Assembly (NCBI GenBank): GCA_946122785.1
Contig: CAMGYJ010000002.1
Span: 56,259,703 to 56,323,702 of the forward strand
Length of the DNA: 64,000 nucleotides
Reading direction: 5' to 3'
DNA from: Linum tenue
Taxonomy: Eukaryota; Streptophyta; Magnoliopsida; Malpighiales; Linaceae
Shown: piece after piece, positions 7,608-46,883 of the stretch
Layout of the letters: each line of letters begins with the position of its first letter
Position numbering within the stretch: the stretch's first letter is position 1
Notes under the pieces: generated by a model
What the model saw: the letters and a program-made list of their open reading frames with translations, nothing else
What the model was told of the DNA's origin: nothing
Databases searched by the model: none
Position numbers and translations under genes: made by a program

Positions 7608-9525
<1,918 letters not shown>

Positions 9526-9922
9526 TCTGGAGTCGGCGACCAGATGGACAGGTCCGGCGGGCAACTGAAATGGAATTTTATGAGAGAGAGATTGAAACGC
9601 ACAAAAAAAAAAAAAAAGGAGATCGATATTGATTCCAAGCTTATGAGGTGACACGATGAAGAGTGGAATTGAGGAGCTGGCAGCTACTGAGATGAGCGGC
9701 AGAGGGCAGGGCACCGACACCCCTTCTCGTGGCGTTTGCGGCAGAAAACAGAAGCTGTGAAATGTCTTTTTTGTTGTTGTTCTTGGCCGAGTTGGAAATC
9801 AACGTCCGCCGTCCATTAATTAATAAATAATAATAATCAAAACATAATTTTTTTAATAATAACCGGTTACAATGTGCTACTAGAGTAGAGGTGAAGGGGA
9901 AGTGTCGTTACTAAGAATCTAA
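9526..9922. other. Upstream region of the Rab gene
   Basis: This is the presumed 5' untranslated region and promoter of the minus-strand Rab gene. It includes a poly-A run near 9602-9616 and AT-rich sequence. No distinct TATA box was settled on. Confidence 0.45.
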
Positions 9923-9930
9923 CACACGAC

Positions 9931-10624: not shown

Positions 10625-10735
10625 CACACGACCTTTTAACGGGGAAGTGTGCCGACTCACCAGCTAACTAGCCCTCGTTCGCAACATAATTTGTAGTCAT
10701 ACTCTTACACAAAAAAAAAAAAAGAAGCTCCCATT

Positions 10736-11661
10736 GGAAATGCAGATTCGCTTTGACGGATATTTTCCGCTTTGATCCGTAGTGGGACGAATAAAATCCA
10801 ACCCTTACTAGAACGGGACAAATCATGATCCGATCTGCTGATAGAACAAGGTGGATATGATTAATGTTGATGATCCATCTTATCCTGGCCCGCCTTTTGC
10901 ATTGGGCTCTTTCATTAACTGATAAAAATAATCAGTTAGTCTGCCAAAATTCTCTTTTCAGAAAGATAAGAAATGGCTCCACGTGCTCTTATTTTTTATT
11001 TGAAAAAATGGGAATTCCAATAAAAAATAAGAGCATTATCAAAGTTTTTCAAAGAAGGGTTATCTTGACTCAGGTCCTAGATTCATGGAGATATAGAAGA
11101 GCATATAAGTTATCATGCTTGCATATCCACCATTTGAGTCTCCAACAATTATTCCAATAATTACATATCCGATTTGACCTATGGACGAATATGCAAGCAT
11201 ACGTTACATGCTTGTTTGAGTAATAGCAATGATATTTCCCACTATCATGCTCCCCAGACTTGATGGATAATATATCACTTCGAGAGTAGTAGCATGTTTA
11301 TACCTTTCCTCTTAATATATTAACAAGTTGACAACATTTGAATAAGACAATTGATGAAGGAAATAACAAATGGGTCTTTAAAATGGATCATGAAGTTTTT
11401 CTACTTATGACTTTTGGGTTTTGAAGTCCATTAAGATTTTTTTAGAAACTTAGTGCCTTTCAAGTTTCTATTTTATGGGAGGATGGTTGAAGATGGGGCA
11501 GAGCGGATTATATATGTCCCATGCGGAGCAAAGTATGGGGCGGATATTTTTGTTCCCTCGTGGGGTGTTGGACAGAGCGGGTTACGAGTTTTGTGGCGCG
11601 ATGGGGCAGGGCACGAATTTGGTACTATTCGCCTCAAACATGACTCGTTGCCATTCCTAGC
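10736..11661. mobile_element. Possible worn hAT-type element
   Basis: The right end reads GTTGCCATTCCTA, the complement of the usual hAT MITE end seen elsewhere in this window, followed by GCTCCCAC. A weak partner end starts near 10736 after GCTCCCAT, so the flanks agree at 7 of 8 bases. The block 11487-11661 is GC-rich with repeated GGGGCRGAGCGG-like words. The left end is doubtful, so only the right part is well supported. Confidence 0.4.
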
Positions 11662-13710
11662 TCCCACTAACGCATTAGTGGGTTGTTGTCCGTGGACCGG
11701 ATAGTAGGGTGGAATCCTAACTAAACCAAATGGGAGATTGCAGTTTAGACCAAAGTATATGGTTTGGTCAGGATCGTGAGACAAGAATCATAGTCTGGTT
11801 TGGCTTGCGGTCTCCCCCCTTTAGAGCACGGCTTGACGTGGTTTGGACCGCAATTAGCCGTCACGGCTCTTGACCCACTACTTACTAATCCAAATTAAAA
11901 TAACAGTAAACCTCTATTTCCATATTTGGAAAAACAACCCGATCCTAATAAATCCGAGTATAGCGAGGAAACAATTCGATCTTCCGATTATAGATTTCTG
12001 TACAAGCACAATAAATCTATTGATTCTTTATCCAACTAAAACCCAACAGACTACTTAAGTAATCCCTTCAGAGCATGGTCTGGTATGCACTTCAGAATGC
12101 TTAAGCTGATCTGGGAGCAGTCAACAGAAGGCTGAACAACCTGCCTAAAGACAAAGGGAAGACAAAGCTGGAAGCCTGCACAAAGGGGGAGTCATCTCGT
12201 CTGCAAACTAAAATAGAGGAGACAACCCTAGGGAATACTAGTGGGCACAATACGCGACCAACTTGCAGGGAAAAGTATTCAGATCAACATTATGGGGTGA
12301 TGATGTTAGTTCATATTGTGAGTTGGAAGAGGAACCTGAAGAGGGACTGCATGATAGCTTCTCTGATGGGGAGATCTTAGAAAATGAGTCTGGCCCTGAA
12401 TACGACTTCTAGAAGAAAGGTGCATCCTTTGAGTGAGGCAGAGAGTGTCTTTTTGAACGATTAAAATTGCACAGTTTGTTTCTTTCTTGTGAACTATTTG
12501 TTTGGCAGTAGAACTCTAGTGTCTATTTCTTCAGTTGGATTTTATGAGGACCTGATTTGCTAAGTTTCAAAGTTTGTTTGAATTCTACTTCTATCTGTTG
12601 GCTAGCGTGATCTATGATGGCTAACCCTTGTATCTGGTATTTTGTGTGATTAGCAACAAGTTCAGTCATTGCCAAACTGAGGACGAGAACGTTGGGGACA
12701 ACGTGGCAATGACAATAGAAACCGCAGCAACTACCACGAGCTAGAGAAATCATTTACATCAGCACCCGTAGCAGCTAGCACCAACTGGAGAAAGATTACG
12801 GGAATCATCCTCAATGGCTCGCACCGAATATGGAAAGCTATAAAATCAAGGAGCAAGCAAGGAAAGTAAATAATTTGATTCAAACAGCTCTAAGGAGAAG
12901 ACTTGTATATATGGAGAGCAGAAAACTAAAGTAGTAGTCAGACTTTTCTACGAACAAGAATCGAGAGCACAAAAGGGTTTGTGAGCGATTAAGGAGAGAA
13001 AATCGGACAAATTTTTGAGTGATTTCTAGAATTGATATTTGGGAATATCAAGTGTTATTAGCTGGATAGCTAGTGTGAGTGTGAGATTGGTAAGGTGAGA
13101 TCTATTAACGGGGAGATCATCAATTGGTTTATGAGTGAGTTGTAAATCTGTGAACATTGTCGGAGGTACACTCCGATCATCTGACTGTGGAATAGTCAGT
13201 TTTGGGATCCTCATTCTCCAGACATTGGAAACCATGTAAAAAATCGTTTGTCATGTGCATTTTTTCTTAATCTGTTTTGCATTTTAGTTATGGAATTTTG
13301 TTCTTGGTTGTTCTTCTTTTGAGTATTGCAGGGCGCTCTTCAACCCGAAAGAAAAAGGAGCAATTGTTGGCTTGTTGGTAAAGCGCACAGTTTGTGCAGG
13401 TTAAGTAAGTTTGTTAGTTCATTCTTATTAGTAACTAGATATTTCTGGCACTTCGTTGTGCAAATTTTGTTATTACGCATATGTTTAGTTTGATTTGTTT
13501 GATTAGTAATGAGGGCTAGTTAAGGGGACTAGGAGGTTCTCAAACCAACACACCAAGGTTTGCAGGTTCAGTCTCTCAAGCTAGTTAAGGGGACTCATCC
13601 ACTGAGGTAAGTTACAATGGTGATAGACCATATGGTAATCCTATTAGCCAAGCAAAGGCATTTGCAGCCTTCACTCCTGAAGAGATAGAATAGACTTAGG
13701 CCATAATTTC
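11662..13710. other. No gene recognised; retrotransposon-like debris
   Basis: At 12290-12412 a short acidic reading on the plus strand (Trp-Asp-Asp then many Glu and Ser) ends in a stop and is not assignable. Sequence at 12690-13450 has the look of an LTR or leader, AT-rich with stop codons in every frame. I could not find matching ends and make no firm call. Confidence 0.35.
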
Positions 13711-14835
13711 CTAGTGCTCTTCATCATGCACTGTTATGTTACCCTTATGTTCTTCTTTATGTCCATATTCATCAGTGGCTTCATCACTGCAGCTCCAAGT
13801 TGTTGTCATAACCTTCTCTCGATTCAGTTTCTTGTTTGGACAATCTACTCTGAGATGTCGTGGTCTTCCAAACCCGATACATGTGACAACAACTTTATCG
13901 ACATTCAAATGGTTTTTGTGTCCATCAAATCCGTCTAAATTATTTTGGTCATGGTTACTTCTTCTCTTGCCAAATTGTTTGCCATCATAGTTCATTCTTT
14001 GTTTCCTCTTAAACTTTAAGTATTATAGTTGCTTACTTAGAAAAGCGATTTAACTGTCAACTTCTTCCTTATCATCATAATTTATATTGGGTTTTCAAGG
14101 CTAAGTCTTTCCTTTTCTTTTGTTTCTCTCCATCTTCAATTCTTAGAACGCTCTCATGAGAAGTGAGAGACCCTATTAGCTCATTAAGCTCAAATTTGGC
14201 AAGATCTTTTAATTCTTCAATAGCTGTGACTTTAGGCAAAGAATTTAACTTACTGACTAAGTTTGCATTGCTATATACCTATCCTAGCGTCATTAACCCA
14301 CTAACGATCCTTGTGAAACAGTCATACATTTCATAGATGCTTTCATTTTTCAGCATTATGAACATTTCATATTCATTAACTAGCATCCTAATATGAGTAT
14401 CATTAACTTCAGACGTACCTTCCTAGGTGATTTCCAATGTATCTCAAATTTCTTTCATTGATTTACACATAGCCACTTTCCCATATTATTTTCTGCCAAC
14501 AGCACACTTTAGAATATGTTTTGCGTTGGCATTGATCTGAAGTTTCTTGAGATCATGTTATATCCAGATGTCAATCTCATTGCTTACTTTCTCTAGTCCT
14601 TTATGTATATTAATCCTGGTAAACATATCATATGCCTTCGCAAAATCCTCTATACAGCTCCTCCATAAGGCATAGTTATTTCCATTCAACTTGGGTGGAC
14701 GAGTAGCTGAGTGCCCATCCATATGATTTGTAGGCGGTAGATGCTCACCATTCTGATTGATGAAGTTGAAGTGTACAGCGGTAAATTGAGCATTTCATAT
14801 AGATCTACTCTGATGCCAATTGAATAACAACAGGA
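13711..14835 (-). pseudogene. Copia-type gag remnant
   Basis: Read on the minus strand from about 14790 to 13711, this is a broken gag polyprotein of a Ty1/Copia retrotransposon. It begins with the usual Lys-Leu-Asn-Gly-x-Asn-Tyr-x-x-Trp segment, continues through the UBN2-type gag domain, and ends with a damaged CCHC zinc knuckle (the first cysteine pair is partly lost). Several in-frame stops and frame changes occur. Just upstream, at 14811-14822, TGGCATCAGAGT resembles the primer site that pairs with initiator tRNA-Met in Copia elements. That suggests the 5' LTR began near 14823. The pol part is missing. Confidence 0.7.
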
Positions 14836-14935
14836 ACAACAGAGGTGAGAGATAAATCGAAAGCACAAGCCTAGAAGGAACTATAACACTGAGTAGTGAA
14901 TATGAAGCAGTTTGGTTGATTCAGGCCTAAATATA

Positions 14936-16440
14936 CACTTTTTATCCCCATTTCCCTTTGATGTTTGTGGCAATTGAGCTCCAAAAAGGGTGGTTTTACG
15001 CTAGGTTTCTTGTGTTTCAATGTGTTTCAGAGTCTAACAGGTGAAACCAACCCCGGACTCGAAAGTTGGAAGAAAAGGAGCAAAGACTGAGCAAAGATGA
15101 GTTTTTAGTCGCAATTCACAGTCAAAACTTGGAGTTCACGGTCGCTACGACCGTGAAGTGGAACCATAAATCGTGAACCGCGAAGCGTCCAGAGGGTTTC
15201 CGAGGTTACTGATGCCGAGGCAGTTCACGGTCGCTAAAGACCGTGAACTGGGGTCATGGACCGTGAACCCCATAAGTGAAGCGGCACGTTTTGCTCGAAG
15301 TTCACGGTCGTTGCCTGATGTGTGAACTGGGAGCGATTTGAGTATAAATATAGAGCTGAAAGAAAGAAGAAGGGAGAGCCCAAAGTGAGAGAAACCTTCT
15401 TCTCTTGAAAACCTAGAGAGAGAAAGTCATGAACCAAGAAGGAGAAGAGGCTAGGGTTTACTCCAAGTCAAGAATTGGGAAGTTCCTTTTCAAGGTAGGA
15501 TCTCTACAAGCAAAAAGGAGGATTTATGCATCATCCATGATAGTTTTTCCCCTTTCCTTTGTGTTCTTCCTTTTTCTAGCATGGAGTAGTCTCCTATTCA
15601 CTTGGATATTGTAGAACCCTAACTTATACCATGTAGCTACTTGTATAGATTGAATGATTGTGTGTGGGCGATGTTTAATTTGAGATTTGAGGTATCTTTC
15701 ATGGTGATTGTGCATTGTGTGTGCCTTGCAATCTATTGTGCTATTCTAACCTAGCTTAGAGGGAAATCCCCCTTTTCTAAAGAGACTCTAATTGAGTTGG
15801 GTTTCCTAGGTTTTTCATACCTCCTAACTAGGTTAATGTAGGGCAAATCTCTAAACTCAAATCGAGCATCTAGGTTAATTGTGCTTTGGCCGCACCAAAC
15901 CCCGGTTTGAGGGAGAAGTTAAGGCAACCCTCAATTGCTTGGGCCAAGAGGGATACATTTGTAGCCTATAATGCTTTCCTTAGCCTAGCAATTGAGAGGT
16001 GGTTTCCAACCATTGTTGTCTCTCCTAGCGGCTCACAATCGCCTTATCACACACCGATTCATTCGATCTCACGGTTCATGGTAGTTGGTTAGAGGGAAGT
16101 AACACCCGAGTGAAGCTTCTCGTCAAGAGTTTTCCACCACTTTACTTTTCAAGTCTTGCTTTTGAGCAGTAGATTGTAGAGATTTTCGCAAATCAAACAA
16201 TCCGCTAGATAATGTTTCAAACAATCAAAGTAGGGGTACATGGGCCGGCCCGAATCGATATTTAAACATACTTGCCCTATATTGCACTCATTTAAGGTTT
16301 ATACTTGGACCTTAAATGGGATTTATTGTGATAGTCGAAGTGAGTCATTGGTCAATATTATTTTTGTCTTAAATGGGTTTCGAGAACATCAACCCACAGG
16401 GTGATCTGTCTAGTTAAGGCATGCTTACCTTCAAAATCAT
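14936..16440. other. Probable LTR-retrotransposon-derived sequence with short palindromes
   Basis: No coding domain is seen. TATAAATA at 15343-15350 is followed by a purine-rich leader-like stretch, as in the R/U5 of a plant LTR. Before it lie perfect hairpin words: TTCACGGTCG and its complement at 15135-15157, and CAGTTCACGGTC with its complement at 15221-15250. The layout resembles a Ty3-type LTR, but no second copy or integrase was found in the window. Confidence 0.4.
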
Positions 16441-17445
16441 TCCCACTTCTCCAGACGTCCCTGTAATATCACCAAACAGAGAAATAGAGGAAAGTAGAGC
16501 AAGCACGATATTGGCAAATAGCATAGAGCCAGAGAGTGGACACAATTTTTTTTGTTAGCTGAGTTATGTCTATTGCTTAGACCTCGACTCAAAGGTGGCT
16601 ATCCTTTTAGATATAGCTTTCCTAGCTAGGGTTTATCTTATTTCTTTTTTTTTTTTTTTTTTTGGTAGAAAGTTTATCTTATTTCTCAGTCTAACCACAA
16701 GTGAATTTTTTTTTTTTTTTTTTGGGTGGAATTCAAACCCTAGTACAGCCCACGAAACAGAAATCAAATGAATTTTCTTATACACAATCATATATATATA
16801 TCTAAAGAAAGTGTCTCCGCACTACTATCACTCGAGCAATCCCAGAGAGAAGTAACCACTACTTCGCACAATCGCTAATCACAGAGTTCTAGTACCAATT
16901 TGATTTCGATCATAGTTTGTGATCCTCTTCTTCTTCTAAACTTTCACAAAACCTGCAGTGGCTAATGTGTTGGATCACCTGATTTGTTGGACCTTTCTTC
17001 TATTCTTGATCATTGTTTCTGCAAGATATATTTCACAATATTTGATTGCTCCAAACTCACCTTTTCTCGTTTGTCCTAGAAAGGAAAGATGAGCTGAATA
17101 GGTGGCGGGGCAAAGGATTTGTGAAGATGTAGATGAGTTCAGACTCGGGCTTGATTGTTTTGATGGTGGTCAGGAAGAGGTTGTTGTGGAAGATTTAACG
17201 GAGGGGATGATTTTTGCATGTCTGAATTTGTTTGGGGTGGAGTAGAACGGAGGAGATGATATCGGAACATAATAGTTTCTTTATTTTTTTTCTTCTCCCG
17301 TTTATATATTTTTTGGAAAAAATTATTGTATTCAATTTTTAGCGGTGGATGAATGAAATTGTTGACAAATGCACAATTTTCCGATTTTAGTGTCACACGA
17401 GGCCATTTTTTCACTTTAGCGATACGAACTCCCCAATTCTCATAT
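16441..17445. other. No gene recognised
   Basis: AT-rich sequence with two long T runs (about 16646-16661 and 16708-16723) and no domain-like frame. Confidence 0.45.
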
Positions 17446-17453
17446 ATCAGTGG

Positions 17454-19584
17454 TAGGGATGGCAATTACCCATCCATGGGTAATTATACCCAAATCCAAG
17501 TAAACCCATTCATAATGGGTTGAGTATGGGTGAAATGCATATGGGTTTGGGGGTTTGTAGATGGGTTTGGGTAAGGTATATATATTGCTTTCATAATCTA
17601 AATGGGTATGGGTTGGATATGGATATCCATTTACTTGAGGGTGTTTTAACTACACATGCAAAAATTGGACTTATTTGTAAAACTTGAAAAGTTTAGGTAC
17701 CAAATGTAAGACCTAAAAAATTTAGGCACCAAAACGTAATTTTCCATCGATATTTTGAGGACTTATATGCAAAAATTTAAATTTAGGTACTAAATATGCA
17801 TATCTATTAAGTTTTAGGTACCAAACTGTAATTTGCATTTGGGCATGGGTACAAACCCAAATCTATTTGTTGAAACCGGACCGGATTGACCCGGTTTTTT
17901 ATAACCGTTTTGGCAAATACCACAACCGGAGACGGGATTGGATTGTATCCGGTTTCAACCGTAACCGGATTGGGTTCGATCCGGTTTTAAACCGAAAACT
18001 GGGCTGGCATCTAACCTCTCCCAGAACGTTGTCGTTTGAATAAAAATTGAGGAAGAAAAATAAAAATCAATAAAAATAAAAATGAAAAGAGGGATCTAAG
18101 ATATCTCCTTCCTCCACTTCTCGACAACTCCCTAGTCCCTACCTTTCTCAATCTCTCTCTATTCTGGAAATCAAAATTTTCTCTACTCCCATTCTTTCTC
18201 GATCTTTCCTCTGCCTTTTCTCCTCCCTGGAGAGCTCTTTGCCTTCTTCATCGCCGTCGTGCGCAGGGAAGCTGAAGAGCTTCGTCGTCGTCGCGCGCAG
18301 GGAATCCGAAGAGCTTCGTCGCCGTCGCGCGCAGGGAAGCCGAAGAGCTCCCTGCCTCCATCATCGCCGTCGTCGTCGTGCGCGGGTCTTGCATGTTTCT
18401 ATATAGGAGAAATCCAGAGGAAGGCAGGTCAGGTCATGCATGTCTCGATCCGGGCGAGAAACAGAGCGATGGCGCTTTCAAATCGGCTGGTGAGACTGAG
18501 AAGAGAGAGGCAGAGCTGCGGTTGCTCCAAATCGATCGTCTTGGTGTCGCCGCCGCCGCCGCCATGGAATCGGATGAGAGGCAAGTAGAGAGGGTGAGTG
18601 AGATAGAGTGGATTTGGGAGATGGGAGGGTGGTTTTTGGCTTTGCCGTTGGAAGAGATTTGGAGAGAAGGGAAGAGATCGAAGAAAGGCGGCTGCGCCTT
18701 TGAGTGTGAGCTCGAGGGAGACGAATGTAGGGTGTGTGGAGTCGGGCTTTAGGGGTTTGGGAGGGTTGGTGGGCCTGTAGATGGCTCCGGCCTAATTAAA
18801 TTGTAGAGAGAGGTGGGCTTGCTGGGGAGATGGGGTGGGCTCAAGTTGGGCTATCCGGTTTTTTCCGATTTTAACCGGATCGGACCGGGCTGTGACTAGG
18901 GGTGGCTATACGGTCCGGTCCGGTTAATTGGCCCAAATTGATCCGGTCAGTCCGGTTTTTTTTGAAAATATAAGGACCGAAGATTGGATTGGATACAGTC
19001 CGGTCTTGAATCCGGTCCGGTCTTGACCCGGTCCGGTCCCAATTCGGTCTTGATTTTATATTGAGATTGTGGGAATTTGAGTGGCCTAAGGCCTAAAAGG
19101 GTGAGGAGTTGGTTAAGTTTTGTACTAAGTGCAAAGGTTTGTGACCGTTTATGCAAATTACCCTTAAGTTTTGGAAGGTTGAGCTCTCTTATCCGGTCTT
19201 TATCCGGTTTTTTACCTCAAATCTAAGCCCAAAGATTGGATTGGATTGTTTACTATCCGGTCCCGGTCCGGTCTCGGTCCGGGTTATACGGTCCGGTTTC
19301 CGGTTTTTTCATCTGGTCCCGGCCAAATAGCCAGCCCTAGCTGTGACCACTGCAACCGCAAACTGGATTGGGTTACTTGGAATCCGGTTTCCGGTTACAA
19401 CCGGGACGGTTTAAACTGGTCGGTTTCCGGTTTGGCCGAAAAACCGAGACCGGATTCCCAGCCCTAGGTATGGGTACAAACCCATCAACCTCTACCCATA
19501 TCCATCTATTTGAATTTCATACCCAACCCAATTGGGTTGGATAGTAAAAAAACCCATGGGTATAGGCAAAATTGTCTATCCCGA
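17454..19584. mobile_element. hAT-type element containing further insertions
   Basis: The left end TAGGGATGGCAATT is mirrored by an imperfect right end at 19571-19584. The flanks ATCAGTGG (17446-17453) and ATTAGTGG (19585-19592) match at 7 of 8 bases, which fits an aged hAT duplication. Subterminal text repeats ATGGGT/ACCCAT words. Inside, from about 17870 to 19466, is another ACCGG-rich element whose right end CCAGCCCTA is clear but whose left end is worn. It carries a GC-rich, gene-like block at 18180-18760 with no known domain. A third, younger element lies inside that (18897-19339). Confidence 0.65.
18897..19339. mobile_element. hAT-type MITE, 443 bp, innermost of a nest
   Basis: The ends are TAGGGGTGGCTATACGG and, inverted, CCAAATAGCCAGCCCTA. 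Flanks 18889-18896 and 19340-19347 are both GCTGTGAC, an exact 8-bp duplication. The subterminal CCGGTCCGG words identify it as the same family as the MITE at 23107-23418. Confidence 0.9.
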
Positions 19585-19592
19585 ATTAGTGG

Positions 19593-19980
19593 TATTCAAA
19601 GCATTTCATTTTAGAATTGAGTGTAGACGACGGGTAACAAAAGAAAAATACATATACAAATGACTACAAAAAAATTTGTTTGTAATGAAATTGGTACAAG
19701 GGATAAAAAAGACCGCGTGATCAGTACCTGCTAGGGAAAAAAAAGAGAGATTTTTTTTTATACTACTCGTAATTTTTTATAAGAAACAATTATATTAACT
19801 TATGATTATACATATGTAAATATAATAATTATTGTATATAGTTCATGAAATTCTGTACTAGTTTGTCGATGTGAAATTTACTTCTGTATAGTTCTAAGTT
19901 CTAACGCTTACAGACAACATCCAAAAACTATTAGAGTTACTACAAATGCAATCCAATCCAATCGAATCGAGTCTAGTGTG
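19593..19980. other. Intergenic, upstream of the membrane-protein gene
   Basis: AT-rich sequence without an identifiable gene. It presumably contains the distal promoter of the gene that starts at 20121. Confidence 0.4.
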
Positions 19981-19987
19981 TATAAAT
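19981..19987 (+). promoter_or_regulatory. Likely TATA box, with CT-rich leader downstream
   Basis: TATAAAT lies 140 bp before the start codon at 20121 and would set a transcript start near 20012. A (CT)n tract at 20054-20073 falls in the predicted leader, a common arrangement in plant 5' untranslated regions. Confidence 0.5.
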
Positions 19988-20120
19988 TATAACTCCCCCA
20001 GCCTTTTTATTCCGTTATAGTTTTCTTCATTTGTCTTCCTGAGAAATTCCCCTTCTCTCTCTCTCTCTCTCTCCACCCCAGAAGCTCGAAAGAAGAAGAA
20101 ATCGCAATAAAAACGAGAAA

Positions 20121-20653
20121 ATGCACAGATCGGCAAGCTGGACGCGGGGCCCGCCGGATGACTACTTCATGCACTCGACGCCGATGGCGGCCTCGTCGGG
20201 CCTCCGAGTCTCTTCTTCGGCTGCCGACGACAACGAGCTCCCCATGTACAATCCCACCGTCGAGATGGCCAAGAAGGAGAAGTCCCGCCGTTTCGCCGAA
20301 AACGCGGTTCACGTCATCCCCTTCCTCCTAATCATCTGCGGATTCATCTTGTGGTTCTTCTGCAATCCCCGTAATATATCTTCGTATTACATTAGATCTG
20401 TAACGTAACATTTTGTTATTAATTAATTTAATTAATCCCTTTTTTTCCAATCAAAATTAATTTAAATCAATGTGCAGATGGGATGAAAGGAGATTCCATA
20501 GCGACGAGGATCGAAGGATTGACCATCGAAGGGGATAGCGACCACGATAGCGACGGGACCCAGACGGGATTCTTACCCATTGAAGCCGACTCGAAGAGAG
20601 CTATTCGCGGCCGCAGGAAACTTGACGAGATTCTCATTTGGAGACGGAACTGA
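20121..20653 (+). CDS. Small plant single-pass membrane protein, unknown function
   Basis: Two exons, 20121-20370 and 20478-20653, join in frame across a GT-AG intron to give 141 residues. The N-terminal half is polar, with Ser/Pro-rich and acidic segments and a basic KKEKSRR patch at 51-57. One hydrophobic stretch follows at about residues 63-80 (VHVIPFLLIICGFILWFF). The remaining C-terminal 60 residues are acidic then basic, ending Trp-Arg-Arg-Asn. With no cleavable signal, it should be a single-pass membrane protein; by the positive-inside rule the basic patch before the segment would stay in the cytosol. I recognise it as a type of conserved uncharacterised plant protein and cannot assign a role. 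Codon use and intact splice sites suggest a real gene. Confidence 0.75.
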
Positions 20654-20956
20654 TCATTAATTAATCATTCATCAATATAATTAATTGATTGGTTAATTAC
20701 TTAATCGGAGTGGTCGATCGAGATCAGCAGAGAATACTCGCGTCATCACCTGGAGAATGTATTTGTTTATTTATTTTTTTTTCCCCTTGTTCATTATTTT
20801 ATGTATTTCTTCAATATTCCCACGTGATATATACAAGTATTCATACACAGATTAACCCTTTCAGAATGTGTTTTCTTTCAATTAGCGGGCGAGTTGTGTG
20901 CATGTTGCTTCCTTGATCAGCTAATCGCTCTGCAATTAATTAATTTCTGTTGAATG

Positions 20957-20994
<38 letters not shown>

Positions 20995-22020
20995 TCTACA
21001 TCCAAAACAGTACTCAGAATACCAACCCAAATTTGGTCATCTCTTATTTAGTTTTCTATATATATATATTCCAATCTGAAATGTGCTTTCTTAACTATTT
21101 TATGGCGAACGTAAAAAGCTTAGTTACTCTTTTCTTACATTAGTTGCAACCGATGCGGTTCCAAGAATTTGCCATAAAAAAAAAAAACCACAGAAAATTA
21201 AGGAAATGAAACTCATCTGCGGTGGATGAGGGCTAAAAGAAAATGAAAGCGGATACCCTCAATAATCAATTTTATAAACAATTAATTTTGACCTAATCAC
21301 AGTGTGACACATGGGCTGGCAAAAGCCACCGCCAACAACCCAGTTTGCTACTAAGTTTCGCCCTTATGAAATTGGTAAATATATTATGTTTGAAATACAT
21401 GGTTCTTTTATCATGATTTTAGATGAGATAAGTCATTACTTTTTAAATTTCGACATAATTTTAAGGGCAATATATTAAAAAATTTGTGAATTCTTTGTAT
21501 TTAATTAAGATTCTCTCATAAAATTTGATTACCAGTATGCTTGAAAAAAACATTCGTCCTCCTAATTGAGAATTCTGGCTCCGTCCCTGTATTACATATG
21601 TATCAGAATCACATTGCCCTCAACTCTGAACTCCCATTACAAGCTCAAACAACCGTTGAAAATAATTCATATATTTACAAATTGCAATTTTTTTATCATT
21701 AAACAACGCATTGTCTAATAAATGACACATTTCATGCACAGAAACCATCTCCATGCATTTTATTATTATTTTTGTAACATATATAGCACGTAGATCCCTG
21801 GAAAAGGCCATCCTTACAAAGAAGAAAAATAACACACTAGTAATACTTATCCTGTTGCAAAGAACACGAGGAAAAAATATATATCACCCATGACTGACCC
21901 ACAATGCAACGGAAAATACAAATAATAGCTAGCACATTAATTCTTAGTTCGTCACAATACTACTTCTTTCACATTACTACAGTTGCACAAGAATAAGCAT
22001 CATTACCAATATTACCACGA
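20654..22020. other. Intergenic, with (TA)17 microsatellite at 20958-20991
   Basis: The gap separates the 3' ends of the membrane-protein gene (+) and the dioxygenase gene (-). It holds a 34-bp TA microsatellite and AT-rich sequence. CTCCGTCCCTG near 21581-21591 looks like one end of a CACTA- or hAT-type element, but no partner was found. Confidence 0.5.
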
Positions 22021-28737: not shown

Positions 28738-31700
28738 TTTCGAGCTTTTATACGAAGCTCCGGTCCCTTTGGAAGGAGGCGACAGCTATCTCGCCCACTC
28801 CTACTTGTACCTACGGTCGCTGCATATGCGGCGTCTCTCTCAAGATCCGCGAGCAGCAGGAAAGCTCGCGTTTGTTTGATTTCCTCATGGGGCTTGATGA
28901 CGCCTTCTCAGCTGTCCATACACAGGTGTTAGCAATGAAGCCAAAACCGTCTCTAGCCGAAGCTTTTAACATCACGTTGACCGAAGAGCAGCAGAAGTTG
29001 ATTACCCAGAACCGTCGTCCCGTGGTCGAGGCCGCTACTTTTGAAGCTCGCAATGAGGGCGATCGGGGCGCACAGCGGGGGGGGGGGGGGGGGGCAAGGA
29101 GAAGCCGCGCTACAGATACTGCCAAAAGCTAGGCCACCTATGCGAGAGCTGCTACTCCTTGCATGGTTTTCCTCCCCGCGACGACCGTGAGTCTCGTGAT
29201 GGTCGTGACGGGCGTGAGTCGCGCGAAAGAGCTGGCGATTCGCAGTGGCAGAACAAACCTCGTCCTGCTGGAAAGAGGGCCCCTCGTGATCGTGATCGTG
29301 ACCGACCTCCTCATGCTACACAGGTAGAGCACGACAAGGATGATGCCAGCCCGGTTGCTGGCTTCACGTTGGCCAGCTCGAGCAACTCAAGCTCTTCTTT
29401 GGCACCAACACTAAGGGTGCTGATGATCCTAGTGCATACCTCGCAGGTACGTTTTCTTCCGGAACTGAATGGTTGCTTGATTCCGGGTGTAACAAACATA
29501 TTATTATGGATGATGCTACTCTAACAAGCAAGATGCTTCATGAACATGGTCCGCCGGTAAGGATTCCCAATTGCGCTAGTATACCGGTGGTCATGTGAGG
29601 AGTGTAGAATTACAACCGGGTTTAGTGCTTAATCGCATCCTTCATGTCCCAGAATTTAAATGCAATCTGATTTCGGTAAACCGTTTTGCCCATGAAAATC
29701 ATGTTCCTTTAATCTTTCTCGATGATTTTTTCGTCATTCAGGACTTACTCTCCAAGAAGCTGATTGAGAAGGGTGAGTTGCGTGATGGTCTATATTATTT
29801 GCGTATGTTTGGAGTTGGACAAGCTCAGGCTTGTGCGGCACGGAAGCATAGCAGGGTTTCTGACGAAGTATGGCATGCTCGGCTGGGGCATCCATCTCTG
29901 GCAAAAATGCAGCAATTGCGGGATTTTCTTGATCTTTCCTCATTATCTGATAAACATTGTGATTCATGTTTTAGAGCTAAACAGTCTAGACAGACATTTC
30001 CTTCTAGCACTATTAATACTCAGCAGTGTTTTGATTTGATTCACGTTGACATATGGGGCGGTTACAAAACAGCTTCCCTCAATGGAGCTCATTATTTCCT
30101 TACTATTGTTGACGATTATAGTCGTGGTGTTTGGGTTTGCCTGCTTTGTTTTAAGTCCGAAGCAGGTCGTTACTTGCTTTTGTTTGACCAGATGATTCGG
30201 CGGCAGTATGGTCGGCGACTCAAACGTATCCAAGCTGACAACGGGCCTGAGTTTAATACCCTCGCACTCCAGGCCTACTATGAGAGTGAAGGTATTGTGC
30301 TACAAACTTCGTGCACGGACACCCCCGAGCAGAACGGTGTAGTCGAGCGGAAACATCGCCATATTCTGGACACTGCTCGAGCGCTTCGTTTCCAGGCTGG
30401 CCTCCCTGCTCGTTTCTGGGGAGAATGCATTCTCACAGCTGTCTACTTAATCAACCGACTCCCGACCACCGCAACTGGTCGTACTCCGTTCGAGATATTA
30501 TTTGGAAAACCAACCCCATACACACATCTCCGCGTTTTTGGATGATTGGCCTATGCCAAAGATACTCATGCTTCATTGGACAAGTTTGGGGAACGTGGTC
30601 GTGCTTGCGTTTTTCTTGGGCATGCCTCCACGCAGAAGGGCTACCGGCTTTATTGGGGATGAGTTTCCTTTCCACACTACTACTTCTCGGCATCTTCACA
30701 AGGTCCCTCGACCCGTTTTCCTTGAACCTGGACATGATTCTGATGAGGAAACGCTTGCTGACCTGGGCCCCTCTGACATCAGCCCGCCGGCACACCCTGA
30801 TGGGCCAGTCAGCCCAACACATTTCGGCTACCCCAGCACCGAGTCTTTGGCTGCCAGCGATGGGCCTTCGGCCCCTCCTCTGTCCGAGCACGCCATTTCA
30901 GCACCTGATGGGCCGCCCTCTGGCCCAGCTGAGCCGCAGCCTCTTCGTGGCAGCGACCGGGCCCGCTCTCGGCCCAAGAACTTGGGTCTCTATGATACCC
31001 AATTCGCTCTGCTGACTGATCAACCCACACAGGGAAGTACCTCGACCCAAGTTACATATCCTCTCTCTGATTTTATTACTTATGACAAGTTTCAGTCCAC
31101 TTATCAATATTTTCTTGCTGCAGTGACCACTCACGATGAACCTCGCTCCTTCAAGGAGGCTTGGGCTGATCCCCGATGGCGTGCGGCCATGACTGCCGAA
31201 ATCCAGGCTCTCTAGCGCAACGGTACTTGGAGTCTTGTCACCCTTCCCCCTGGGAAACACACTATTGCAGCCAAGTGGGTTTTTAAAATCAAGTATCGTC
31301 CGGATGGCACTATTGAGCGCTACAAGGCGCGTCTGCTTGCAAAGGGATATACTCAGATCGAAGGTATTGACTTTCATGACACTTTCGCGCCCATTGCCAA
31401 GCTTGTCACTGTTGTTCGTTGTGTCTCCTTGATGTTGCCATTAGCAAGGGTTGGTACCTTCATCAACTCAACGTCAACAACGCTTTTCCTCCATGGTGAA
31501 ATTGAGGAAGAAGTCTACATGAAGCTGCCTGCCTCCTGGTTGTTTGCAGCACCTGGCGACGCACGTGTTTGTCGTTTTCACAAGTCTCTTTATATGGCCT
31601 CCGACAAGCGTCTCACAACTGGTATCACAAATTCACCACTGCTCTCTATGCTCTCGGTTTCCGATCCTCTCCTGTCGATCACTCTCTGTTTATTTTTTGG

Positions 31701-32450
31701 CGGGGGAGCACCTTTGTTGTGGCTCTCATTTACATGGACGATGTCATCCTCACTGGTAATGACTTGGCTTTCATCACTAAAGTCAAGAAGTCGCTGGATG
31801 ATCAATTTAGCATCAAGGATTTGGGTGATCTTCGCTACTTCCTGGGTATGGAGTTAGCTCGCACTCGTGACAGTGTGGTCCTCTGTCAGCGCAAGTACAC
31901 CCTGGATATTCTTGAGGATGCGGGTGTCGAGGGTGCTCGCCCAAGTGCGTTCCCTGTTGAGAAAAACCATCATTTGACCCGAGCTGTTAGTGATGTCGAG
32001 TTACTCCTTGATCCGTCTTCGTATCGGCGTCTTATTGGTCGCCTGCTCTATTTGACCGTCACTCTGCCCGACATCTCTTATGGGGTCAACCTTCTCAGCC
32101 AGTTTGTTAACGCTCCTAGTCAATCTCATATAGACGTTGTTGTTCGTATTTTGTGGTATCTCAAGTCGTCTCCTGGTCAAGGTATTTTCTTCCCGCGTAC
32201 CAGTGATCTTGCTCTTACCGCTTATTGTGAGGCTGATTGGGGTGGTTGTGAAAGCACCCGCCACTCTACGACAGGTTATTTCATCACTTTAGGAGGCGCT
32301 CCCATTTCCTGGAACGCCAAGAAATAGCATGTTGTGGCTCGTTCCTCTGCTGAGGCTGAATACCGTGCCATGGCCAGCACGGTGAGTGAGGTACTTTGGC
32401 TCCGCTGACTTCTTGATGAACTTGCTGTTCCTCAACCATGCCCCACTTCA
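28738..32450 (+). mobile_element. Decayed Ty1/Copia retrotransposon body, LTRs not found
   Basis: Domains appear in Copia order on the plus strand. A gag piece with UBN2-type text runs over about 28740-29130, lacking its first part. A protease motif (Trp-Leu-Leu-Asp-Ser-Gly) lies near 29470. An integrase follows, with its His-His-Cys-Cys zinc region around 29870-29970 and catalytic Asp, Asp and Glu in DIWGG, QADNGPEFN and QNGVVERKH. Reverse transcriptase has YMDD near 31735, and the RNase H-like tail is around 32220-32400. The frame is broken by stops at 30542-30544, 31213-31215 and 32326-32328 and by frame changes, one beside an 18-G run. It breaks off mid-RNase H at about 32450. It is inactive. 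Confidence 0.88.
29077..29094. repeat. Run of 18 G
   Basis: An uninterrupted G18 tract sits inside the gag remnant of the Copia element. It falls where the gag frame is lost, so it may be a slippage product or an assembly-sensitive homopolymer. Confidence 0.9.
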
Positions 32451-38205: not shown

Positions 38206-38301
38206 TCTAACCCGCTTGTTCGATTGTGCAAACGGGTTAAATCGGATTGATAACCTTGTTGTCTTCTATAATTTTAATTCTAAATTCTGAATATTTAATT
38301 T

Positions 38302-38561
38302 TGTTGGACCCGTAAATATGACACGGCTCAACTCGAACAATAGCCGTAATCCACAAGCGCAGATGGGCCAAAGCCCACAAAGACCCAATGAAAGCCCAAT
38401 GAAGGATGACAAGGCTTAACCTATAAATATACCTTTAGGTCTTCCAAGGAAGGGATCTCTTCTTCTCCTCTTCTCACTTTGACATATGACTTCTCTCTCT
38501 ACACTATCTCTCTCTACCCATGCTTTCCATGTCGGAGCTTTCTTGTTTCTTGGCTGAAACA
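38302..38561 (+). repeat. 5' LTR, 260 bp
   Basis: Contains TATAAATA at 38422-38429, followed by a CT-rich R/U5-like segment. It reads the same as the 3' LTR. Confidence 0.93.
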
Positions 38562-39429
38562 ATTGGCGCGCCAGATAGGGGGATCCAAGAAAACTGAGTG
38601 CGTCAAGACTGAACATATTCTATTAGGTGCTTGTTCGGTCTCCCCAAGTACTTGGGTCATTCGGCAGTGAAGATGAGTAGATCTGGAAAAAAAGGGAAGG
38701 CAGAGGGCGAAGAACCCAGTTTGCGGCGGCGGTCTTTTGAGGGGAATGATGTTGGCCTTGTTAGATTTGCACAAAGGAGAGGCTTCATCAAACCCACGCG
38801 AAAGAGGAAAGGCAGAGGGCGAGGAGCACAGTTTGTGGCGGCGCTAGTCGGTGAGAACGCCGACGCAGCTTCTCTTCGGGTGAAAGAAGGAGACAGATGG
38901 TCGTCTGTGTAAAGAAAAGGTAAACTCCCGTCTATGATTGTTGGTGGGTCATTTTGTGAGGAAACTGGTCGGGAAAGTTCATATTTGGCCCAATCCACCA
39001 TTAATTCTTCCTTCTAAACACAGATCGAAAAATCAAAATTTTCCTTTAATTTGGGTTCGTTGAATTGAGGGGGTCTTTTCTGTTCATCCTCATCATCCAT
39101 GTCCCCAACCACTTTCGTCTCGTCTTTCTCGAAAAGGCTTGGAGAAGCCTGAAACTTTTCTATTCCATCTGCTTCAGAAAAAAAAAGGAATATATAAGGA
39201 ATATATATGTGTTATATATATTGATAAGATTTGCAGAAGAAACTTGAAAAGAAAGAAGAAGTGGCGAGTTCCGTTCTTCCCTTGCAAAGATTTGCCTGGT
39301 TATTCATCCCCTACGGGTTTTTCCAGAAGGAGAGTTAAAAATATCTCAAATTCAGGCAATTATCACTGATCGGAGACAGATTGCGGCGCCGGAACTCTGA
39401 TGAGAAGGGATAAAAACCCTAGAGCGGCC

Positions 39430-39655
39430 ACCCATCAATTGTGAGGAGGGAAGGCGCCTACCGCTAGCGGGAAGTGTGAGCAAGCGCATGGGCGCATGGA
39501 CTTTGTGGGCCTGAGCCCAGCCATCCTAGCTATGCGCTCCTTGTCCAACCAAAAAAAAAAAAAAGAGAGCATGCGCCTACATCTGCAAGATTCGAACCAG
39601 GCGCCTTCATGAAGAAAGTTAGGCTCCAACACCATTAAGCTACATTATGAAGCTT
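39430..39655 (-). repeat. tRNA-like, SINE-like repeat
   Basis: On the minus strand, TAGCTTAATGGT (39642-39631) resembles a tRNA box A, and GGTTCGAATC (39598-39589) is a perfect box B about 40 nt further on. A T-run and an unrelated body follow. That is the head layout of a tRNA-derived SINE. A weaker similar block occurs at about 40970-41030. It cannot fold as a whole tRNA and lies inside the LTR element. Confidence 0.45.
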
Positions 39656-40350
39656 GTTCTAATGTCCCAGACAAGGGAATATACTAAGTTTGTGATGTAT
39701 GATGGAACGCTCCTATTTATCAAGTCATGGCCGAGGGGCCTAGATATCAAATTTATACACAATGCAACAACGCCTAGCAAGAATCAGACTCCCGACCCAG
39801 TGTTTGAAAAAGAAAAGTCGAAGTCGAATTTGTCAGACACGTGGATTGAATCTTGCATCCAGTCAACTTCAAGTCAAGCACTTTCACCAACAACAACAAG
39901 CAAAGCGAGATACGTGCCTGTTGTTGGTACCACAACTATATATTGCAGGAAATGCTCCTGTTGTAAAAGAGGTGCGCAACGCCTCAACGGACATTCGAAC
40001 ATGCGCCTCTAATTTTTTAGTAGAGCTTTGTCACCTCCCACCACATTATATTTTTGTTACAAGAGAGGAAACAACTGCAAGTCATTGAAGGAGCAAGACC
40101 CTTTACATCCCACCAAGAAACAAGTTAAGTACCCGCTTCTCTTAAGTTATTGCTTTATGTTCCTGAGTGCTATGTCATGATTTGAACTACTTCATTATTA
40201 GAAATTCTATGACAACATGCTATGCTCGCCTACATGCCGCTTATATCTTTCGTGATGCATATTGCTTTTACGTTGCCATCAAAATACTAGAAACATCGGC
40301 TTGATATTTGAGATACTCTCCACACTCAAATATAGTGTTTCATGGTTGGT

Positions 40351-40566
40351 AATACTCTCCGCGCCCAAATATAGCGCCCTCGATGGAAATACTCTTCGCG
40401 CCCAAATATAGCGCCCTCGATGGAAATACTCTTCGCGCCCAAATATAGCGCCCTCGATGGAAATACTCTCCGCGCCCAAATATAGCGCCCTCGATGAAAA
40501 TACTCTCCGCGCCCAAATATAGCGCCCTCGATGGAAATACTCTTCGCGGCCAAATATAGTGCCTAT
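40351..40566. repeat. 36-bp minisatellite, six copies
   Basis: The unit begins AATACTCTYCGCGCCCAAAT and repeats at exactly 36 bp from 40351, with only one or two changes per copy. It lies in the interior of the young LTR element. The period is a multiple of three, so several frames stay open through it. Confidence 0.9.
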
Positions 40567-41791
40567 GATTGGAAATAATAGTTGCTCCAAGATCTAGTGC
40601 CTAAAGTGTATAGTTCATCATAGAAATCGTAGTGCATGTTATGTCTGCCAGTTCTATAAATGAGACATCAATCATTTATGGAAGCATGCAACTAGGGCGC
40701 TTAATATATGAGAGCAATGTGATCTTTTGGGTAGTTCGTGAGTAGCTGGAATGAGGCGCATGGCTTGTATTATTCCACCTTTCATCTTATAGTTTTTGGG
40801 AGATAAGTGGCATAAGAAAATGGGGTCTGAAGCAATACGAATTTGGAAGGAAAAAAGAAAAACAACATGCTTAGGTCTCTTTTGCTTTGCTTTCAAAGGA
40901 GTAGGCGCCCATTTAAGCTTAGACAAGAAGATGGTACTCCAAGCTCCGCCCATCACACATTGAATGCTTGCAAAGACTCAAACTAGGCGCATTAAAAAAA
41001 TAATGTCTTGACTACCAGGCTACCAGTCTAAATGGCGATCATGTGGTCAATTAAGGACCACTTGTCTTGTTCACATACAAAAACACAAGTGCTGGAATTG
41101 AAATCCATCTGAGTACCCTGTGGAGATAAGCATGCATTGCCGATAGAATGCACTGCAATTTTATAACTTATGAGGGAACACATCCTTATTCAGCATGGGT
41201 TATCTTGGCGACATACACATACGAGGAAGCATATCAAGAGATAAGTTAAGTATTTCCTATCATTATTCGAGTTATCTTCGTAACCAATGCATGAGTCAAA
41301 TTCTAGTACACTACTTCGTATTTGCATGATTATTTTCGTTATTTAGTTAAGGTGACATTGGTGAACAAAATACCAACGGATCTTATGTCAAATTTGGTAA
41401 GTCGGGAACTTTAATTAGTCGTCCAGTGCACCACTAGACGCCTAACTGGGGGACAATTGGGGATAACATGCGCATGCATATTCAGGATTATTATAAGGCA
41501 AACAAATCTTTAATTAGGTGTCTAAAACGCCATAACCATGTTAGATGTCAGAACTGCAATAGTTAATCCTTAATCATGTTATGAGTCACATTATGTTACG
41601 TAGTTCTTTTTCTACATGGTTCTTGCTCCAAATTATTAAGCTATTATGATCATGGGGGCATGGATAAGTTAGCCGGGGGACAAGAAGTGCATACACGTCA
41701 TACGCCAGAAGCAAAACACAAAGGATGCGAAAACATAAAGGATTTTAGTTAGGCATCCAATATACTATTGGATACCTAACTGGGGGACAAT

Positions 41792-42051
41792 TGTTGGACC
41801 CGTAAATATGACACGGCTCAACTCGAACAATAGCCGTAATCCACAAGCGCAGATGGGCCAAAGCCCACAAAGACCCAATGAAAGCCCAATGAAGGATGAC
41901 AAGGCTTAACCTATAAATATACCTTTAGGTCTTCCAAGGAAGGGATCTCTTCTTCTCCTCTTCTCACTTTGACATATGACTTCTCTCTCTACACTATCTC
42001 TCTCTACCCATGCTTTCCATGTCGGAGCTTTCTTGTTTCTTGGCTGAAACA
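41792..42051 (+). promoter_or_regulatory. 3' LTR with TATA box facing the MSRA gene
   Basis: The LTR carries TATAAATA at 41912-41919 in the same orientation as the downstream MSRA gene. Its end is 166 bp before the MSRA start codon. Transcription started about 30 bp after this box would run through MSRA. Short upstream reading frames (one starting at about 41977) would lie in such a leader. Confidence 0.7.
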
Positions 42052-42217
42052 AATTTGATTACGTGGCATGTTTTGATTGGGATGGTGCATAGGTTAGGTA
42101 GTGCACCGGGTGCTTCCAATAAATTTCTCTAGTTCCTTCCGGCCAACGTATCTTCTCAATCCCCCGCAAATTAACTTTTAACCGGACACGTCACTCACAC
42201 TGCCAAAAGGACGAAAT

Positions 42218-43699
42218 ATGCTCCACAAAGTAGCAGCCGTCTCCACCACCGCCACCTCGCCGATCCTTGTACTCCCCGCCTCCGCCACCGCCTCTTCTTC
42301 CTCCGCTCTTTCCAACCCATTCCTCGCTTTCCCCAAAAGACTCAAACTTTTCACTAAAAACCCCTTCTCCATCCCTCAATCTTCCAGACCCATCTCTTAT
42401 TCCCAGCCCACCATGAACATCCTCAACAAACTCGGTTTCGGCTTCCGGTCGCCCGACCCTTCCACCATGGACCCGACGATTCCCCAGAGCCCAGACGATG
42501 ATGTTCCTGCCCCTGGCCAGCAGTTCGCCCAATTCGGAGCTGGGTGCTTCTGGGGAGTCGAATTGGCGTTTCAGAGGGTTTCCGGCGTTACCAAGACCGA
42601 GGTCGGGTACTCTCAGGGTTTCCTCCACAATCCCACATACGAGGACATCTGTACCGGTACTACCAACCATTCTGAGGTGGTTAGGGTTCAGTTTGATCCG
42701 AAAGAGTGTAGCTACGATGCTCTGCTCGATGTGTTCTGGGCTAGACACGACCCGACTACCATGAATCGACAGGTTTGTTTGTATCTTTTTTGTTTATCGG
42801 TTGTAGTTGAATCGGGGTTAAATTTTCTTGTATAGTTCTTCAGATGGTTAGCAGGTCTTGAGGCTCGTTAGAATATCTCTGGTTGCAGAACTGGGTCACG
42901 TCTGTTTTTGTGGTTGTTGGATGTGATCTACATCTATTTTAGGGGAAGCTTGTGAGTCCTTGAAGAGATAGCTGGATATCTAGTTTTGGTATGGTAGAGA
43001 ATGAATTCTGTAAGCTGAAATCCCCGCTGGCTGATGCAAAGGAATCAGTTAGATTGGATTGCTATAGCTCCAATTTTTCGTATTTTAAGCGCTTGGCTCA
43101 GTGTTGATAGATAAACTCGGTAGCTCCTTGTAACCGCTTAGGAATGGACACAACTTGATATCGGTCTCGTGAAAATTAGCAGCTTCTGGTTGTTCAGAAT
43201 GCCTCTCCGGCTATGCTCTCAATGTTGGTTCCTCTTGTATCACTGGACATAGGATCATAGAAGTTGTAGGGCTGGTGATATCAGGCCATTCTGTTCAAGT
43301 ACGGCGAAAAAGCGTTACACTTCTTGTTTCAATGCCCTTCCATATCACCATCCAGTTTTCTCCTCTAAAACTGTAATGGTACTGTTATTCACTAATTATC
43401 TGAACTTGTCGCTGAATCTGATATGTGTTGGTGGTCGATGCTGGCAGGGAAATGATGTGGGAACACAGTACAGATCCGGGATATACTACTACACACCAGA
43501 GCAGGAGAAAGCTGCAAAGGAGTCGATGGAACGACATCAGAAACTCTTCAACAGGAAGATAGTCACGGAGATTTTGCCAGCCAAGAAGTTTTACCGAGCT
43601 GAAGAATACCACCAGCAGTACCTTGCTAAAGGAGGGCGTTTTGGTTTCAAGCAGTCCACTGAAAAGGGCTGCAACGATCCAATCAAATGCTATGGTTAA
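42218..43699 (+). CDS. MSRA: Peptide methionine-S-sulfoxide reductase A, plastid type
   Basis: The enzyme reduces methionine-S-sulfoxide in proteins, repairing oxidative damage, and is recycled by thioredoxin. Exons 42218-42772 and 43448-43699 join in frame over a GT-AG intron to give 268 residues. Residues 1 to about 65 are Ser/Ala/Pro-rich and basic without acidic residues, like a plastid transit peptide. The catalytic motif GCFWG has Cys110. Resolving cysteines are Cys260 and Cys266 in the C-terminal tail ([11 protein letters not shown]), as in plant MSRA. A second in-frame start, Met66 at 42413, begins [10 protein letters not shown], the way cytosolic plant MSRAs begin, so a shorter cytosolic form is possible. 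All key residues are intact. A young LTR retrotransposon ends 166 bp upstream and may replace or disturb the native promoter. Confidence 0.95.
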
Positions 43700-45371: not shown

Positions 45372-45630
45372 TTATCGTTTCAGTTTGGTCATTGGTTTGT
45401 GGATGATAAGTTGTGGAATAGTAGATGTCTGTCTATTGGAGACTGAAGACCCAGTCCAAAATCGCTCATGAAGGTGGAAATCTCGATAACAAACAATGGT
45501 GGAAGGCATCCCATGATATTTGAAAACTTCATCGAAGAACACTTGGGCAACTTCCGCAACGGTGTAGGGATGCTTCAAGCAAAAACAAAATGCAGATTTA
45601 GTAAACCGGTCCACTACCATCAAGAGTAGA
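45372..45630 (-). pseudogene. Ty3/Gypsy integrase core fragment
   Basis: The minus-strand reading starts VVDRFTKSAFCFCLKHPYT, then FKYHGMPSTIV and a damaged Asp-Arg-Asp segment. This is the first half of a Gypsy integrase core with its first catalytic Asp. It stops after about 80 residues and abuts Copia sequence, so it is an isolated fragment. Confidence 0.8.
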
Positions 45631-45639
45631 GTCCATCCG

Positions 45640-46883
45640 CAGCGAGGCCTCGATATAACTCAGTCGATATGCGACGGTCCTTGATAACAAAATGAGAGGG
45701 AAAAATTCAACGGATATAGGATTAGTGCCAGTGAGAGAGCTAATAGAAAGCAGGCTGTATGGAGCAATTGGGACGCGGAGAATATTTTTCAAAGTAAGAG
45801 ACATATGAGATAAGTAAGCACGAGATGAACCAGAGTGAGTAATGGGAAGAGAGTTGTTGTTGCCAAACATGACCTGATCATCGCCATTGTATTCGGAGTG
45901 ATGGCCTAAATTGTCCAAATCTAATGTTAGATGATGATTGGTATCCAAATCAAGGAGCCATTGCTGTGGATTAAAAGGTTGGGCTGGACTGGAAGCCATA
46001 TGGGCATGAGGACCAGAGAGAGGGCGAGACGGGCCAAAGGAAGAGGAATGATGGGAGCTGGGGGCGGCAGGAGGGGTTGGGCCACTGGAGAAGATTGGGA
46101 CTGGGCAATTAGAGCGAATATGATCACGCCCACCGCAATTATGACAGACCACATGTTGATTTTTTGGCCACCCAAGCACTCCAGATTTTGGACTAGTTAA
46201 CCTCCTAGAAGGAAAAGAAGAAAGAAGATTAGAGGAGTCGCCTTGTCGGGAAGCGGGGCGACCACGCCCACGATCGCCACGGCCCTGAATTCCCCCGGCG
46301 GTCGAGAAGAAGGTCGACGGCGCCGACGAATCCAGACGCGATGAATACTTCTACAGCTATGACTCTTCGCTCAGCAACAAGGAATGAAAATCTTCAAAGG
46401 TAACGGGCTCCATCTTGGCTTCAATATTGCGGGTGAACGGTCGATACTACTCTCCTAGTCCATCAAGGATCCAGCTCACGAGATCGTCAGTAGAGACAAG
46501 CGCCCCTAGCACGGCCAATTGATCTGCAGCAGTCTTTGCCCTATGAAGATAAGAATGAATGGAATATGTACCTCGATTGAGGTTCGGAAGAGATTTGGTG
46601 AGTTGTCGGAGTTGTGCCATCAACATGCCCCATGAGACAATGACACCCGTGAATAGGAAGAAGCTGAGCTTGCCAGAGAAGGTAATTGTTCAAAGTGAGC
46701 TTTATTGGGAGTTGCAGATTAGTAGGAAGAGCAAGGGCCGGTGCAGAAGAAAACAGAGGCCAGCCGTGGTGGACAATTGAGGAGATTCGGTTGACATTAT
46801 GTAGCATGAAAAAGGAATAAGAGAGGGGAAAAAAAAGGGAGATGACTCGGTAGAGTATAAGATAGCTCTGATACCATAAAAGC
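45640..46883 (-). pseudogene. Copia gag-protease remnant
   Basis: On the minus strand, gag starts near 46800 (LTLNNYLLWQAQLLPI) and continues in pieces to a zinc knuckle near 46150-46110 (Cys-x2-Cys-Gly-Gly-x-Asp-His-x4-Cys). A protease-like region follows around 45990-45680, in which the active Asp-Ser-Gly has become Asp-Thr-Asn. GTTTTGGTATC-like primer text is represented by TGGTATCAGAGC at about 46876-46865, pairing with initiator tRNA-Met. Stops interrupt the frame. The element is truncated where Gypsy sequence begins at about 45630. Confidence 0.75.

Follow-up and report, generated by a model that had tools for sequence, protein, structure and literature searches.

Within a 64,000-nucleotide stretch of the Linum tenue genome (C2:56259703-56323702; the assembly comprises 692 Mb in 17 contigs; hereafter the window), a long terminal repeat (LTR) retrotransposon has recently inserted 166 bp upstream of the start codon of MSRA, a gene for peptide methionine sulfoxide reductase A. 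The element is non-autonomous and carries an LTR deletion that is private to it in this genome. An earlier note on this DNA had presented the element as a ready-made promoter for MSRA; we consider it reasonably probable that the gene is still served by its own promoter, with the LTR secondary at most. Our confidence in this explanation overlaps with that in the alternatives discussed below, as they are not mutually exclusive.

The element and the gene

The element totals 3750 bp and consists of two direct LTRs of 260 bp each and an interior of 3230 nt. Pairwise comparison in the window shows that the LTRs are identical (260/260), as the earlier note had read them, and the AATTT target-site duplication is likewise intact on both sides. 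The LTRs start with TGTTGGACCC and finish with GGCTGAAACA (TGTTGG...GAAACA), thus running from TG to CA. The interior opens with a primer-site-like ATTGGCGCGCC, and a polypurine tract, CTAACTGGGGGACAAT, ends at 41791, adjoining the 3' LTR. The first nine bases after the 5' LTR, ATTGGCGCG, are found likewise in the related LTR loci L006, L007 and L009 (the window holds no tRNA for comparison). When the interior was translated in six frames with stops read as X, 6/6 frames gave no Pfam family at E 0.01; the six open reading frames (ORFs) of the element gave three weak matches, all below the cut-off of the Pfam family concerned, and no homologue came up when the ORF at 38631-38909 was used as a protein query. 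The gag and pol domains of an autonomous Ty3 or Ty1 element are thus not seen, and because no Pfam domain is present in six frames, we call the element a non-autonomous LTR retrotransposon.

The MSRA gene has two exons, with an inferred boundary, that encode a 268-aa protein with a PMSR domain (PF01625, Pfam E 2.4e-61) and the sequence GCFWG, the motif of peptide methionine sulfoxide reductase A. The protein matches 2j89_A (E 8.4e-140), and all of its 268 residues are found in the L. tenue record P0001, which has one additional residue at the exon junction. A second L. tenue MSRA record, P0037 (205 aa), skips part of the PMSR domain and by eye has a junction donor without GT; it may result from an artefact of annotation or of the cDNA. 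Three further MSRA loci with two matching exons are present in the genome, one on C10, where the exons are open, and two on C7, which lie in opposite orientation, with 94-99% similarity between the 9.5-kb stretches that were compared. The features of the locus, in window coordinates, are as follows.

38297-38301, no strand: target-site duplication AATTT, left copy (AATTT present once at the empty site in C10)
38302-38561, plus strand: 5' LTR, 260 bp, same sequence as the 3' LTR
38562-38590, plus strand: primer-binding-site-like stretch directly 3' of the 5' LTR
38562-41791, plus strand: non-coding interior, 3230 nt, no domain in the six-frame Pfam scan
40347-40563, plus strand: tandem repeat of a 37-bp unit (5.9 copies) that also has matches in the interior of each of the related elements L031-L034
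41410-41459, plus strand: extra internal polypurine-tract-like copy (CTAACTGGGGGACAATTG); more than one GGGGGACAAT also in L031-L035
41776-41791, plus strand: polypurine tract region ahead of the 3' LTR
41792-42051, plus strand: 3' LTR, in the MSRA direction, lacking 72 nt of its relatives (junction 42022/42023)
41912-41919, plus strand: TATAAATA, the TATA motif of the 3' LTR
42052-42056, no strand: target-site duplication AATTT, right copy, flanking the 3' LTR
42061-42067, plus strand: ACGTGGC in native DNA, from the motif scan
42133-42209, plus strand: block (-85 to -9) that is conserved in the two C7 MSRA paralogues, with ACGTGTC on the minus strand at 42185-42191
42146-42153, no strand: ACGTATCT, the site of a 776-bp insertion in C10, from the C2/C10 alignment
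42218-42772, plus strand: MSRA exon 1, putative boundary
43448-43699, plus strand: MSRA exon 2, putative boundary

A recent insertion with a private LTR deletion

The absence of differences in 260 bp of LTR gives a 95% upper bound on the age of the insertion of 0.38 My at a rate of 1.5e-8, as used for flax (PMC3544724, in excerpt), and of 0.82 My at 7e-9, as used for L. tenue (PMC11114476, in excerpt). With slower rates of 4e-9 and 1.5e-9 the bounds become 1.4 and 3.8 My, so that the "very young" of the earlier note stands within limits set by the rate.

A second line of evidence comes from C10:5985850-6060461, where most of the window is present a second time, positions 1-12445 in inverted orientation and 22003-64000 in colinear order interrupted by indels; window 12446-22002 has no match there except one 127-nt repeat. 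The two copies differ by 266 substitutions in 46,472 aligned sites (0.57%; 0.15-1.25% over nine blocks), a figure that stands for the long blocks, since the 20 alignments were used without the ten below 1200 nt and a repeated match beyond C10 6055849, several of which are less identical (82-96%). At 7e-9, simple arithmetic converts 0.57% to approximately 0.4 My. At the position of the element, C10 has a clean empty site, TTTAATTTGATTACG, with a single AATTT and no LTR element. To our knowledge, LTR elements are not expected to be lost precisely and tracelessly, and the insertion is therefore most likely younger than the separation of the C2 and C10 copies. The insertion is recent, as the earlier note had claimed, with the C10 empty site providing support that is independent of the identical LTRs.

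As to the nature of the C10 copy, both C2 and C10 are chromosome-sized, and their divergence is above the mean within-population diversity of L. tenue, 1.3e-3 (PMC11114476, in excerpt). On the other hand, the L. tenue assembly exceeds the 498-Mb assembly of L. trigynum by about 190 Mb (same excerpt), so that unmerged haplotypes are possible. The C10 copy would be either a recent segmental duplication or an unmerged haplotype.

To place the element in its family, we searched the genome with the LTR and scored 40 matches of 112 candidates, both LTRs of the window element included; the copy number of the family is accordingly a lower bound. Among the 38 other scored matches, the nearest LTRs are 94-95% identical and all 38 stop aligning by LTR position 231, and no near-identical source copy of the element is found among the 40. 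The LTR TATA motif, as CCTATAAATA, is present at 25 of 28 family LTR loci and is thus a family feature. Both LTRs of the window element lack 72 nt between ..CCATGT and CGGAGC.. (junctions 38532/38533 and 42022/42023), a segment that is held by 27/28 other LTR loci (L003-L030, some entries being the two LTRs of one element); the exception is L023, whose match ends at position 210. A search with 38 nt across the deletion junction, allowing up to three mismatches, gave two matches in the genome, both in the window element, although such a search misses a more diverged copy sharing the deletion. The 72-nt deletion is private to the window element in this genome. As both LTRs carry it, the deletion dates from the source copy or from the reverse transcription behind this insertion, unless there was later conversion between the LTRs.

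Special constraint on the 72-nt segment was considered and found unsupported. Over 25 loci (L004-L006 excluded as near-identical to the reference L031, and L023 scored as zero), the mean identity of the segment to the L031 LTR is 0.82, with U3 at 0.86 and the TATA-R part at 0.835; the segment scores above both in 9/25 loci. Since the segment is conserved no better than the remaining LTR, we claim no special function for it, although it might conceivably contain a poly(A) or splice signal.

Four related full elements, L031-L034, have LTRs of 331-343 bp and sizes of 3.87-5.49 kb, with LTR pair identities of 332/333, 325/330 (two gap columns), 337/341 and 343/343. Their resemblance to the window element covers the LTRs, a short stretch that follows the 5' LTR, the 37-bp repeat array and at least the last 427 nt of its interior, much of the rest of which is unmatched. 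Two copies of GGGGGACAAT are present in the window element and in each of L031-L034, and three in L035. No domain was found in three forward frames of L033 or in one frame each of L031 and L034. The same scan of three forward frames in L032, on C7, gave zf-RVT and RVT_3, presumably LINE-derived, inside a related LTR element.

Two further relatives deserve mention. The LTR locus L005 (C6:45310657) has flanks that both equal those of L031 (C6:46552865-46556736), 1.24 Mb away, and has the appearance of a solo LTR in a duplicated segment. L035 (C3:19190555-19196821) is a related element with LTR-like ends and a long interior that by eye resembles host-gene sequence, for which gene capture or nested insertion is possible.

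What drives MSRA

The 3' LTR ends at 42051, and 166 nt of native DNA (42052-42217) follow before the MSRA ATG at 42218. We compared 4222 nt of native upstream sequence, with the flanks of the element joined, to both C7 paralogues and obtained one significant match each, from -85 to -9 (E about 1e-11 per paralogue; next best E about 0.06), with no significantly conserved distal element in these 4.2 kb. The conserved block lies intact between the LTR and the gene, the LTR being 81 bp outside it, and the landing site of the element has no detectable conservation with the C7 paralogues. A 21-nt run, TTAACCGGACACGTCACTCAC, which includes the minus-strand ACGTGTC, is identical in 4/4 MSRA copies. 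We infer that the block serves as promoter or as 5' leader and that it presumably stays dominant over the LTR; in either role it lies undamaged between LTR and gene.

In the course of events that we favour, the element with its private deletion inserted upstream of MSRA and landed outside the conserved proximal block, leaving it whole. MSRA transcription would most likely start from the gene's own promoter in the 166 bp, probably within the conserved 85 bp, with the LTR contributing no more than a secondary start or a change in expression level.

Several observations weigh against this reading. The native 166 bp have no TATAWA match in the motif scan, and the TATA-like AATAAATT of C2 reads AAGAAATT in C10, so that by consensus the native core is weak and the LTR TATA good. 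The conserved block could also be 5' untranslated region only, with the native start lying nearer to the insertion or beyond it. Finally, the C10 copy carries its own insertion amid the block and still has open exons, suggesting that the block may be dispensable.

The lack of a native TATAWA would suit a different explanation, in which the 3' LTR now drives C2 MSRA by LTR read-out, as its main or a condition-dependent promoter, with a start approximately 30 nt after TATAAATA and a leader of approximately 270 nt. The 3' LTR does lie upstream of MSRA in the same direction, as the earlier note had described, and carries a core promoter motif, the family TATA; it also has CT-rich tracts, its end is 166 bp from the ATG, and the private deletion shortens the leader from LTR to gene. 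Set against this is the intact conserved block between the LTR and the gene, the only upstream stretch with a significant match to the C7 paralogues; the earlier suggestion that MSRA transcripts may by now begin inside the LTR is not supported. An LTR-initiated leader would contain five upstream ATGs (41976, 42010, 42019, 42068 and 42082), none of which reaches the MSRA ATG and the frames of which all stop by 42132, bearing out the short upstream frames that had been predicted; their number is close to chance (about four expected in 273 nt with equal bases). Upstream ATGs tend to reduce translation, which would count against read-out as well. We regard an LTR-driven MSRA as possible but unlikely, and less likely than a continued native start.

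The LTR also shows little that would link it to stress. A scan of the LTR and the native 166 bp, made without a chance control, found no heat shock element (HSE), W-box, G-box, dehydration-responsive element (DRE) or as-1 pattern in the LTR, a further point against read-out. The ACGTG(G/T)C sites (42061 and 42185) are in the native 166 bp and not in the LTR, and we take the first to be of the abscisic acid response element type. The native 166 bp hold in addition CCAAT motifs and a minus-strand TGACG at 42189. The LTR has two matches to TGACnnnGC, which we take to be the animal antioxidant-response pattern and which would fit a redox gene; we are not aware of a plant factor that recognizes this pattern. 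LTRs as a class can be stress-responsive, and beyond this general property there is little in the sequence to suggest stress-linked expression from this LTR, so that the corresponding proposal of the earlier note is not sustained.

The insertion might act on MSRA in other ways. All DNA upstream of 38302 is now separated from the gene, and either methylation spreading from a silenced element or the 3.75-kb displacement of distal elements could lower or alter C2 MSRA expression, with the C10 and C7 genes compensating. The three other two-exon loci would allow for this, and the apple element redTE is methylated (PMC6445120, in excerpt), but the 4.2 kb compared contain no distal element with significant conservation, and we find such an effect quite improbable. 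The insertion could equally be a neutral polymorphism with no measurable effect, an explanation that overlaps with the one we favour and to which we give a low but appreciable probability. Of the 66 polymorphic Ty1-copia insertions cloned from flax, 55 fall inside a gene or no more than 1 kb away from one (83.3%, 14+30+11; PMC5142383, in excerpt), so that such placement is not rare in the genus and recent near-gene insertions would be common; the unconserved landing site also fits neutrality, whereas at 166 bp the element would be near any start site.

The C10 copy adds a comparison of its own. Its conserved block holds a 776-bp insertion (G000:C10:6030003-6030778; L048 4154-4929) that is flanked by ACGTATCT on both sides, has the ends AGGGCTGGTA...TACCAGCCCTTT and ends 71 nt before the C10 ATG. 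The 8-bp duplication and inverted ends, which we take to be the mark of hAT elements, suggest a hAT-type DNA element. Neither insertion is present in the two C7 paralogues in the region compared. It is conceivable, if doubtful, that C2 and C10 each took a different transposon into the proximal promoter within 0.57% divergence, the LTR, shortened by its private deletion, giving a start in C2 and the block being split in C10, and that expression of the two is diverging. If true, this would be a natural paired experiment on promoter rewiring by independent insertions. The locus comparison is unusually clean, with C2 carrying the LTR, C10 the empty LTR site and the split block, and two older paralogues alongside. 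As a natural test of promoter insertions on a stress-repair gene, the C2/C10 pair is the most useful by-product of this analysis.

Elsewhere in the window there are two Copia-type remnants, one at 29580-31854 with gag-pre-integrase, integrase and RVT_2 above cut-off, and one at 45601-46350 with zinc-knuckle and Pol_BBD traces just below cut-off.

Comparison with known systems

LTR insertions that rewire nearby plant genes are already known, and the principle is not new. In wheat and rice, Kashkush et al. reportedly measured transcripts arising from LTR read-out onto adjacent genes; the mechanism proposed for MSRA, an LTR promoter transcribing outward, is the same. A literature search on plant LTR alternative promoters returned a pig study only, and none of the papers listed for an LTR at an MSRA promoter described one, as judged by titles and abstract openings.

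The element resembles the non-autonomous classes terminal-repeat retrotransposon in miniature (TRIM) and large retrotransposon derivative (LARD) in having LTRs, a polypurine tract and a target-site duplication without gag or pol. TRIMs are about 1 kb or less, and LARDs have long LTRs and more than 4 kb of length without coding capacity. At 3750 bp the window element is too large for the former, and with 260-bp LTRs it does not fit the latter (its relatives L031-L034 have 331-343-bp LTRs in 3.87-5.49 kb); by these size limits it lies between the two, and it differs from both by its private 72-nt LTR deletion. In flax, 32 LTR elements classed as 'undetermined' have 100% LTR identity (PMC3544724, in excerpt).

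The closest parallel is redTE, upstream of MdMYB1 in apple (PMC6445120, in excerpt). Like the window element, it is a recent LTR element, gypsy-like, with identical LTRs and a 5-bp duplication; it has one close relative (96%) in the apple genome and is proposed to alter MdMYB1. Enhancer action of redTE is backed by reporter and segregation evidence, whereas any action of the window element on MSRA is putative. The two also differ in build and placement: redTE is 4097 bp long with 1274-bp LTRs and lies 3.3 kb upstream of its gene, compared to 3750 bp, 260-bp LTRs and 166 bp for the element at MSRA.
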